Source of the DNA: Patescibacteria group bacterium
Lineage (GTDB): Bacteria; Patescibacteriota; Patescibacteriia; Patescibacteriales; Patescibacteriaceae
Assembly (NCBI GenBank): GCA_030583705.1
Contig: CP129471.1
Location: forward strand, 176,506-240,505
Reading direction: 5' to 3'
Length of the DNA stretch: 64,000 bases
Part shown: positions 13,049 to 16,466 of the stretch, one piece after another
How positions within the stretch are numbered: position 1 is the first letter of the stretch
Layout: each line of letters starts with the position of its first letter
Notes under the pieces: generated by a model
The model's input: only the letters and a program-made list of their open reading frames with translations
Databases searched by the model: none
What the model was told of the DNA's origin: nothing
Translations under genes and position numbers: made by a program

Positions 13049-14287
13049 ATGAATATAAATAACAAAAGAGCTTTTACTCTTGTAGAACTCCTGGTAGTTA
13101 TAGCCATTATTGGAGTAATTTCCACTTTAGCGACTATCTCTTTTTCCAACTCAAGACTATCCGCGAGAGATGCTAAACGTTTAAGTGATATTAGATTAAT
13201 GTCTAATGCTTTGGAATTATATTATGCGGATCACGGAAGTTATCCTGATGAAGTTGATTTCCAACCCGGACAATCATTGATCAGTACAGATGGACAAATC
13301 ATTTATTTAGCCTCTGTTCCCGACAATCCTATTCCCTGGACAGACGGGGATTGTCCTGAGGAAAACTATGGTTATGAAACATCAGATGGCTCTTCTTATC
13401 TTATAACAACTTGTCTTGGTGGAGAGTCTGCGACTTTTGCTCCTGGTGTTATTACTTATAGTCCCGAAGAAGGTTTAATCGGGCAAACTCCGGAAGGTGG
13501 CGGGGGCGGTGGACCTGTTGCTAGTTTTAACTGCGGTGATCCAATTGAAGATGATGATGGTAATGAATATAATACCGTTCAAATAGGTACACAATGTTGG
13601 ATGAAAGAAAATCTTAAAGTCGGAACTATGGTAAATAGTCAATTTAATTCACCTTGCGTTTATATTTCGAGCGTGCCCGGGTATTCTTGTCAGAATAATA
13701 ATGCTGTTATTCAAAAATATTGTTACGGAAATAACGCTAGCAATTGCGAAACTTATGGGGCCTTATATGAATGGCACCAGGCCATGAATTTGCCGACAGC
13801 GTGTGCTAATACTAACTGCTCTGGTAGTATTCAGGATCCGCATCAGGGCATTTGTCCAACTGGATGGCATATTCCGACAGACGAAGAATTTAATACCCTT
13901 GAACTATACACTCTTGCTACTATAAATAGTCAGAATAATCAGTACCCCTGTAGCACAGGAGAGCTAACTTGGTCTCGTTGTGCTGATAATAATGGCACTG
14001 AAGCAGGAGGGCCAAGTGGAGTTGGAAAATCCCTTAAACTTGGCTCTAATTATAGTAATGATAATTTAGTTGGATTTAGCATGTTGATGAGTGGCGGTGG
14101 TTCTCCGAGTCGTTCTCCCTCTGGCGGATTTAATAATGTGGGTTTTTATGGGTTTTTATGGCTATCAGATGAGACGAGTACTATAAATGTTTTAACTCGT
14201 CAATTATATTCGGAGAATAGGACAATTCGTCGAGCTAATGCTTTTAATAAATTATGGGCGCTTAGTGTTCGTTGTGTTAAAGACTAA
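13049..14287 (+). CDS. Type IV pilin with FISUMP (TIGR02145-like) C-terminal domain
   Basis: The N terminus has a short basic leader and the prepilin site after Ala (KRA|FTLVELLVVIAIIG), then the pilin helix and a GSYPDEVDF-type body. A Cys pair (GDCPEENYGYE and TTCLGG) closes the pilin part. A Gly-rich hinge (residues about 150-157) leads to a Fibrobacter-succinogenes-major-paralog domain: IGTQCWMKENLKV, GALYEWHQAMN, GICPTGWHIPTDEEF, and an end reading LSVRCVKD. This domain has a C-type-lectin-like fold in related families. AGGAGT at 13035-13040 could serve as ribosome site. It is likely a surface pilus subunit or tip adhesin. Confidence 0.85.
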   Translation: MNINNKRAFTLVELLVVIAIIGVISTLATISFSNSRLSARDAKRLSDIRLMSNALELYYADHGSYPDEVDFQPGQSLISTDGQIIYLASVPDNPIPWTDGDCPEENYGYETSDGSSYLITTCLGGESATFAPGVITYSPEEGLIGQTPEGGGGGGPVASFNCGDPIEDDDGNEYNTVQIGTQCWMKENLKVGTMVNSQFNSPCVYISSVPGYSCQNNNAVIQKYCYGNNASNCETYGALYEWHQAMNLPTACANTNCSGSIQDPHQGICPTGWHIPTDEEFNTLELYTLATINSQNNQYPCSTGELTWSRCADNNGTEAGGPSGVGKSLKLGSNYSNDNLVGFSMLMSGGGSPSRSPSGGFNNVGFYGFLWLSDETSTINVLTRQLYSENRTIRRANAFNKLWALSVRCVKD

Positions 14288-14358: not shown

Positions 14359-14386
14359 TTGACAAATTCTTAAGGCTTGCTAATAT
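14359..14386 (+). promoter_or_regulatory. Promoter of the thrS T-box leader
   Basis: TTGACA (14359-14364), 16-nt spacer, TAATAT (14381-14386). Predicted start is near 14393, just before the T-box leader. Confidence 0.7.
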
Positions 14387-14392
14387 TAATGT

Positions 14393-14630
14393 TAGTTCTT
14401 GATAAATCTTAAATGTTTTAGTTTTTAGTTCTTCGGCGATTGTCGCGGCTACCACCCGCGGTTTGATTAATAACTTAGTTAAATAATCAGATCTCTTTAG
14501 AGACTAAGCTGATTTTAGAGAGCCGTTTGTCTTTTAAGACCAAGCGGAAATCAGGTGGAACCGCGAGACTTTTGTCCCGTCCTGATAATCACACAATTGT
14601 TTTTTTGTGTTATTGTCAGGGCGGGTTTTA
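14393..14630 (+). promoter_or_regulatory. T-box riboswitch leader of thrS
   Basis: The conserved T-box AGGTGGAACCGCG is at 14553-14565; its TGGA would pair with the tRNA acceptor end. It can pair with the following TCCTGAT region as an antiterminator. The competing terminator is a long hairpin from CCCGTCCTGA (14576-14585) to TCAGGGCGGG (14616-14625) followed by TTTTAT. Upstream are a stem III-like hairpin (14523-14547, CCGTTTG/CAAGCGG), a stem II-like hairpin (ATCAG/CTGAT around 14487-14513) and a short hairpin CGCGG/CCGCG with a 7-nt loop CTACCAC holding the Thr codon ACC. A wider pairing of 14392-14404 with 14462-14475 may enclose it. It is expected to let thrS be read when tRNA-Thr is uncharged. 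Confidence 0.88.
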
Positions 14631-14714
14631 TATTATTTTAACCTGTAAATAACATCTTTAATTTTCGTTTTATTTCATTTATTTTTTAATTTATTTTATA
14701 ACTCCATTAACCAT

Positions 14715-16466
14715 ATGTCACCCTTACCACTCTCCACTAAACGCCACTCTTTAGCTCATCTTATGGCTCACGCAGTGCAAGAGCTTTATCCGGACGCTCT
14801 TTTTGCCATTGGTCCGGATATTGCTGATGGCTGGTATTATGACATTGATTTTCCTAGCAGCAAACCTAGGGAAGAAGATTTTTCTGCCCTGGAAGAAAAA
14901 ATGTCTGAATTAATTAAAAAAGATTTGCCTTTTAAGCATTCTACGATGACGATTAAAGAGGCTTTGGTTTGGGCTGAAGAAAATAAGCAACCTTATAAAA
15001 TAGAACTGATTAATGATTTAGCTGCTGCCGGCGAGACAGAAGTAAGTTTTTACTCGGTTGGTGCTTTTACCGATCTTTGTCGAGGGCCTCATGTAGAGCA
15101 TACCGGACAAATTTCTTTGGATAGTTTTAAATTACGTAGCTTAGCCGGTGCCTATTGGCGAGGAGATGAAAAGAGACCAATGTTAACTCGTTTATATGGT
15201 TGGGCCTTTAATGATAAGAAAGCCCTTAAAGGCCACTTAGCTATGCTTAAAGAAGCGGAAAAAAGAGACCATCGCAAGTTAGGTAAAGAGCTGGATTTAT
15301 TTGTTTTTTCCGAGCTAGTGGGAGCTGGACTGCCTTTATGGACACCCAAGGGTATGGTGTTAAGACAGGTTCTAGATGACTTTGTTTGGGAATTAAGGCG
15401 AGCGGCTGGTTATGAAAAAGTGGAGATTCCACATATTACCAGAAAAGAACTTTACGAAACTAGTGGACACTGGGAAAAATTTAAAGAAGAACTTTTTATA
15501 GTTAACACCAGAGAAAACCATTTTTTTGCCATGAAGCCGATGAATTGTCCTCATCATACGCAGATTTTTAAACGTCGTAAATGGAGCTACCGAGAATTAC
15601 CTCAGCGTTATGCTAATACGACTATGGTTTATCGTGATGAACAGACCGGTGAGTTATCTGGTTTACAAAGAGTAAGAAGTATTACTCAAGATGATGCCCA
15701 TGTTTTTTGCGCCCCAGAACAAGTTAAAGAAGAGATTTTAAAAATTTGGGAGATTATTGAAAAATTTTATTCAGCCGCTGGTTTTGAATTGGAAGTTCGT
15801 TTATCTTTTCATGATCCCGAGTCTATGGATAAATACTTGGGTGACCCGGCTCTTTGGAATAAAGCTGAAGCGGATTTGTTAAGTTTACTTAAAGAGAAAA
15901 ATCTTGAACCAACAATTGGAGTTGGTGAAGCCGCTTTTTATGGCCCTAAGGTTGATTTTATGGCCAAAGATTCTTTAGGAAGAGAGTGGCAATTAGCCAC
16001 TGTTCAGCTGGATATGAACCTGCCCGAACGTTTTGATCTAACTTATATAACTTCTGAGGGGAAGGCTGAACAAGTGGTAATGATTCACGCCGCTATTATG
16101 GGTTCTTTGGAAAGATATATTTCCGTCTTAATAGAGCACTATGGCGGAAACTTTCCGGTTTGGTTGGCACCTGTACAAGTTAAATTCTTGTCTGTTTCGG
16201 AAAACCATACAGAAGCTTGTCGAACCTTAACCGAAGAATTAAATCAAAAAGGCTTAAGGGCTGAATATGATGCTTCCGGGGAAACGGTTGGTAACAAAAT
16301 AAGGAAGACTTCAGCGGAAAAAGTACCTTATGTTATTGTGGTGGGGGATAAAGAACTCGAGTCAGGTAGCTGGCCGGTCCGTAGTAGAGGAGAAAGAGAG
16401 TCGGTTGAATATAAAAAAGAGGACTTTATAGAGAAAATAATTAAAGAAAATAAAAATAGGTCTTAA
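14715..16466 (+). CDS. thrS: Threonyl-tRNA synthetase lacking the TGS domain
   Basis: Class II synthetase charging tRNA-Thr. Residues about 1-175 form the editing domain (HSLAH at 11-15; CRGPHVEHTG), about 195-480 the catalytic core (PMNCPHH zinc Cys, motif 2 VYRDEQTGELSGLQRVR, DDAHVF, motif 3 IMGSLERYI), and the rest the anticodon-binding domain (PVQVKFLSVSENH). At 583 aa it starts directly with the editing domain, so the N-terminal TGS domain of the usual 640-aa enzyme is absent. No in-frame upstream extension with that domain fits, because the T-box terminator lies there. Control is by the T-box. Confidence 0.96.
   Translation: MSPLPLSTKRHSLAHLMAHAVQELYPDALFAIGPDIADGWYYDIDFPSSKPREEDFSALEEKMSELIKKDLPFKHSTMTIKEALVWAEENKQPYKIELINDLAAAGETEVSFYSVGAFTDLCRGPHVEHTGQISLDSFKLRSLAGAYWRGDEKRPMLTRLYGWAFNDKKALKGHLAMLKEAEKRDHRKLGKELDLFVFSELVGAGLPLWTPKGMVLRQVLDDFVWELRRAAGYEKVEIPHITRKELYETSGHWEKFKEELFIVNTRENHFFAMKPMNCPHHTQIFKRRKWSYRELPQRYANTTMVYRDEQTGELSGLQRVRSITQDDAHVFCAPEQVKEEILKIWEIIEKFYSAAGFELEVRLSFHDPESMDKYLGDPALWNKAEADLLSLLKEKNLEPTIGVGEAAFYGPKVDFMAKDSLGREWQLATVQLDMNLPERFDLTYITSEGKAEQVVMIHAAIMGSLERYISVLIEHYGGNFPVWLAPVQVKFLSVSENHTEACRTLTEELNQKGLRAEYDASGETVGNKIRKTSAEKVPYVIVVGDKELESGSWPVRSRGERESVEYKKEDFIEKIIKENKNRS

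Follow-up and report, generated by a model that had tools for sequence, protein, structure and literature searches.

According to a review of the field, T-boxes that act on transcription generally depend on a long Stem I carrying an elbow-binding module for fast capture (PMC7583486). The ultrashort Stem I T-boxes of Actinobacteria are translational and combine a K-turn in Stem I with an S-turn in Stem II and a IIA/B pseudoknot (PMC7583486, PMC10651847). TBDB was built from the Rfam T-box model RF00230 together with an actinobacterial class II model (PMC7778990). Our literature search, whose coverage is incomplete, found no paper joining the T-box with the candidate-phylum names searched.

We investigated the leader of the threonyl-tRNA synthetase gene thrS in a stretch of 64,000 nucleotides (the window) from the genome of a Patescibacteria group bacterium. 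On computational evidence, this leader is very probably a T-box for tRNA-Thr that regulates thrS by transcription antitermination through a minimal reading head of the junction type. It appears to be a new structural variant, a transcriptional T-box that dispenses with the tRNA-elbow module, contrary to the textbook rule.

Architecture of the thrS leader

The leader spans 14433-14640, and all features described here lie on the plus strand. It precedes thrS (14715-16466), whose product matches TIGR00418 with 658.5 bits (cut-off 383.65) and has its nearest named relatives in Magasanikbacteria and Paceibacterota. Pfam recognizes the SAD, core and anticodon-binding domains in this ThrS, and no TGS domain was found there with Pfam. 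The upstream gene (13049-14287) encodes a protein with a pilin-like N-terminal methylation motif and a Fibrobacter succinogenes major domain. A consensus scan predicts a promoter at 14359-14386 (TTGACA-16-TAATAT with an extended TG, 10/12).

The sequence-only reading had proposed the hairpin CGCGG-CTACCAC-CCGCG as the specifier. This hairpin is real, but its stem has six base pairs rather than five: UCGCGG (14443-14448) pairs with CCGCGG (14456-14461) around the loop CUACCAC (14449-14455), so that the whole element covers 14443-14461. The loop holds the threonine codon ACC at 14451-14453, which matches the GGU anticodon of tRNA-Thr. The hairpin sits in a multi-branch junction closed by another covarying helix, P1, which the first reading had missed. 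The 5' strand of P1, UCGGC (14433-14437), pairs with the P1' strand GCUGA (14508-14512), and the junction runs in the order P1, GAUUG, specifier hairpin, one or two further hairpins, CUAA and P1'. In the window, the conserved GAUUG lies at 14438-14442. Hairpin 2 (14464-14489), recognized from the sequence and from the relatives, is variable and absent from some of them, and hairpin 3 (UCUC-UUUA-GAGA, 14492-14503), which has an equivalent by eye in most relatives, adjoins the conserved CUAA (14504-14507).

Downstream of the junction, Stem III occupies 14523-14547, with a conserved AA after it. The antiterminator (14550-14586; fold -12.1 kcal/mol) is formed by AUCAGG (14550-14555) and CCUGAU (14581-14586) around the T-box bulge, in agreement with the RF00230 alignment. 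The T-box sequence AGGTGGAACCGCG is present with its core at 14554-14565, and its UGGA (14556-14559) would pair with U73-C-C-A of tRNA-Thr. An intrinsic terminator follows, made of a hairpin at 14576-14625 (-31.3 kcal/mol, z -9.25) and a U-rich tail reaching 14640. The U-tract of the window is interrupted (UUUUAUAUUAUUUU), and a simple terminator scan of the window gave no flag there. Since the 5' arm of the terminator contains the 3' strand of the antiterminator, the two structures are mutually exclusive, and all the parts of the switch that had been read before thrS are in the sequence. The same layout is found in most relatives: the terminator overlaps the antiterminator arm in nearly all leaders, and its hairpin ends in at least four U in most relatives.

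These U runs also bear on whether the leader could be a translational T-box of the actinobacterial kind, in which the downstream hairpin would hide the ribosome-binding site. Translational T-boxes are the main group in which an ultrashort Stem I is known (PMC7583486), which speaks for this reading; the hairpin, however, ends about 89 nt before the ATG, with no Shine-Dalgarno sequence visible there, and together with the U runs this makes a translational switch highly improbable.

The genome provides the matching ligand. Genes for tRNA-Thr(UGU) and tRNA-Thr(CGU) were found, both with U73. The family search overlooked the gene for tRNA-Thr(GGU), whose anticodon is the natural match for ACC. This gene carries a 200-nt insert after the anticodon; it lies at G000:C1:372033-372306 (L176:1658-1931), and its joined exons form a standard tRNA with U73. 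All three genomic tRNA-Thr thus share U73, and UGGA is complementary to their NCCA end. No Rfam intron family matched the insert, which carries motifs that may be group I-like (AAGATACAGTC). A second copy of the tRNA-Thr(GGU) 5' exon with a different ending is located 177 nt upstream (L176:1481-1518). In the same contig, the tRNAs found around 2.8-8.6 kb appear again around 861-867 kb at an offset of 858,159; the contig ends therefore overlap, and the chromosome is probably circular, with a length of about 858 kb.

Covariation and transcript start in related leaders

Most leaders of the same-class genomes that match RF00230 were fetched for comparison. The relatives share a common plan of P1, GAUUG, specifier hairpin, one or two hairpins, CUAA, P1', Stem III with AA, UGGA and terminator. 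As in T-boxes generally, the specifier codon fits the regulated gene: relatives with GAUUG and an ACC hairpin precede thrS wherever the fetched stretch is long enough to show the gene. Across 61 related leaders, including 27 held-out ones, the specifier hairpin has a 6-bp stem in which every pair covaries and a 7-nt loop N-Y-ACC-R-N. In GAUUG, the AU and the final G are invariant over 34 leaders, and the first G and the fourth U exceed 90%.

We cut 34 leaders at anchors, which yielded 44 gap-free columns with 92.2% of cells paired (56.8% when shuffled). The search pattern demanded ACC and pairing at five or more of the six hairpin positions, so that two of the resulting figures are partly built in: the 96% of paired cells in the hairpin and the invariance of ACC. 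Neither the link to thrS nor the diversity of pair types stems from this selection. Both sides changed in 12/12 pairs, with 160 double-changed cells, and compensatory changes occurred in 6/6 pairs of the specifier hairpin. The covariation score reached 1.007, versus 0.297 when shuffled and at most 0.237 when slid, and held up at 1.080 versus 0.290 in the 27 held-out leaders that could be cut, which bears out the proposed CGCGG/CCGCG stem. When strands were swapped between leaders, P1 dropped to 2.07 bp (native 5.26) and hairpin pairing to 55% (native 96%); among 28 held-out leaders, the corresponding values were 5.44 versus 1.95 bp and 96% versus 47%. The best-pairing CYAA anchor was chosen where several exist, which favors P1 somewhat, and the swap control used the same choice. 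CUAA forms an aligned column in an 18-leader alignment, in which the AA after Stem III is also invariant; in the joined held-out fragments (alignment A4), CTAA was typed in, and the four invariant CUAA columns of that alignment are no evidence. Altogether, sequence and covariation demonstrate P1, the specifier hairpin, the T-box and the competing hairpins.

The minimum-energy fold of the window contains neither P1 nor the specifier hairpin: this region pairs with the T-box instead (CGGCUACC with GGUGGAACCG), as a duplex of -19.2 kcal/mol. Such pairing could be an intended OFF state besides tRNA reading. Over 34 leaders, though, the native duplex is no better than the swapped one (-11.04 vs -11.03 kcal/mol), many leaders have other closing pairs in the specifier hairpin, and the GGU in the T-box is simply the Thr anticodon. 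We rejected this pairing as an OFF state, which is very unlikely; because it shows no covariation over the 34 leaders, the complementarity is probably due to chance.

The position of the transcript start bears on a further alternative, a canonical long Stem I beginning upstream, with 14392-14404 pairing with 14462-14475 and the ACC hairpin merely a part of it. The window leaves space for such an extra leader, as its predicted -10 ends 51 nt before GAUUG. It is an exception: of the 32 leaders with a promoter prediction, most have a -10 that ends 9-25 nt upstream of GAUUG, which puts the transcript start at P1 and therefore leaves no room for a long Stem I. The upstream stretch, which the sequence-only reading had offered as an unusual Stem I, thus lies before the predicted transcription start in most relatives. 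As P1 and the specifier hairpin both covary, this alternative is largely refuted, and we regard its probability as close to negligible. The other claims of that reading each withstood testing: the 7-nt loop with its Thr codon, the lack of a long Stem I, and the transcriptional terminator.

Other T-box modules are likewise missing from most of the family. With a hairpin of 6 bp and a 7-nt loop, and a predicted transcript start at P1 in most relatives, there is no long Stem I with an AG bulge and an elbow-binding distal module. A motif test, which a diverged IIA/B pseudoknot might escape, found the S-turn motif of Stem II (AGUARAA) in only 1/63 Thr leaders and the F-box motif CCGUWA in only 4/63. 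The K-turn signature NNNGA/GA is absent by sequence, the flanks of the hairpin being GAUUG and CUAA. Among the individual relatives, the Thr T-box continues as UGGAACCGCC, UGGAACCACC or UGGAACCCUCC rather than UGGAACCGCG in L064, L070, L097, L102, L108 and L123, with a separate upper hairpin, and the thrS leader of L093 may carry ACA, not ACC, in its loop.

Detection and spread of the leader family

RF00230 matches the window leader at 14409-14587 with the antiterminator aligned; for the stretch searched, the match has 37.6 bits and E 5e-7. The suggested Rfam check thus gave a match, but one far below the gathering score of 93 bits. Six Thr-type relatives score 29-58 bits, and two others gave no listed match at E<=0.01, so every Thr-type member tested falls far below the standard cut-off. 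The host genome, a single contig of 869,590 bases, yields no further credible RF00230 match; a second match at G000:C1:797280-797469 (15.9 bits), without a T-box core in locus L002, was taken as chance.

Matches to RF00230 at E<=0.01 occur in 81/192 genomes of the same class, only 6 of them above the cut-off. T-boxes are common in this candidate-phylum class, and the leader of the window is therefore one member of a large family missed by database cut-offs. These low scores explain why surveys at the Rfam cut-off would miss the Thr leaders, and the TBDB models (PMC7778990) may have failed to catch them as well.

We built a covariance model, R1, from 18 leaders, excluding the window and its closest relative; Stem III is paired and aligned in it. 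R1 finds the window leader at 58.4 bits (E=1.5e-11), and all of the approximately 50 checked R1 loci with at least 42 bits have thrS downstream. The search did not require ACC in the matches, yet R1 was trained on ACC leaders. At E<=0.01, R1 matches about half of the sampled genomes of the class (189/381) and 30/287 drawn from the phylum, with one strong match outside the class (G595, 74.2 bits). Inspected matches below about 42 bits (L217, L218, L220, L222, L225 and L228) include K-turn-type leaders of glycyl- and probably seryl-tRNA synthetase; the count of 189/381 therefore contains some generic T-box matches. This family extends tRNA-sensing riboswitches to a large, mostly uncultured bacterial branch.

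Proposed mechanism and comparison with known T-boxes

The proposed mechanism starts with the nascent RNA, which would fold P1 and thereby close the multi-branch junction, a structure supported by covariation. The loop of the specifier hairpin would then present ACC to the GGU anticodon of tRNA-Thr. By analogy with the known T-box mechanism, U73-C-C-A of an uncharged tRNA would pair with the UGGA bulge and stabilize the antiterminator, giving readthrough into thrS; with charged tRNA, the terminator of -31 kcal/mol would win and transcription would stop. As the elbow module, the S-turn motif and usually the F-box are missing, anticodon reading would have to rely on the hairpin and on the junction of P1, GAUUG and CUAA, which may provide the support that Stem II and the elbow module lend in other T-boxes. 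Tentatively, and leaning slightly against it ourselves, we raise the idea of a separate T-box class, in which this junction would be a new tRNA-binding fold that replaces the Stem I K-turn, the Stem II S-turn and the IIA/B pseudoknot and permits fast capture without elbow contact. The reading head is smaller than those in the literature compared. These terminator-linked leaders, some of which need only 77 nt to get from GAUUG to the T-box, make the elbow-module rule directly testable.

The phylum also has short T-boxes of the hairpin-loop kind for Asp/Asn, Val, Gly and probably Ser, with the downstream proteins identified by eye. An AAC (Asn) loop precedes an apparent aspS in L027, L030, L031, L035, L036 and L047, and a GAC (Asp) loop is found in L029 and L054; the AAC loops suggest a non-discriminating AspRS that may be controlled by tRNA-Asn. 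L053, L058, L090, L218, L222 and L225 are short leaders of the K-turn type; most of them carry GGC in the loop of the hairpin, and glycyl-tRNA synthetase-like proteins follow L053, L090, L218, L222 and L225. In L228, AGC precedes an apparent serS.

Compared with canonical class I T-boxes (RF00230; Firmicutes, e.g., B. subtilis thrS), the Thr leader shares the UGGN bulge, the antiterminator/terminator switch and Stem III with AA, as well as the thrS target and the codon-anticodon logic. It differs in having no long Stem I, and thus no place for an AG bulge or an elbow-binding module, and in having a hairpin-loop specifier and a P1 that encloses several hairpins, with the S-turn motif absent and the F-box rare. 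The likeness to the ultrashort Stem I T-boxes of actinobacterial ileS (N. farcinica and M. tuberculosis structures), noticed in the sequence-only reading, holds for the specifier in the apical loop of a short hairpin and for the lack of an elbow module. It does not extend further: the Thr leader has a terminator, carries GAUUG and CUAA instead of the K-turn signature, lacks the S-turn motif and usually the F-box, and has a different topology with several hairpins inside P1. Closer by, the K-turn-type T-boxes before aspS, valS, glyS and serS in related Patescibacteria (genes assigned by eye) share with it the codon in a short hairpin loop and an aminoacyl-tRNA synthetase as target, whereas they have a local base stem with a K-turn-like GUUUGA/GA, to which those of aspS and valS mostly add AGUA/GAA (AGUARAA) and CGUUA-like motifs.
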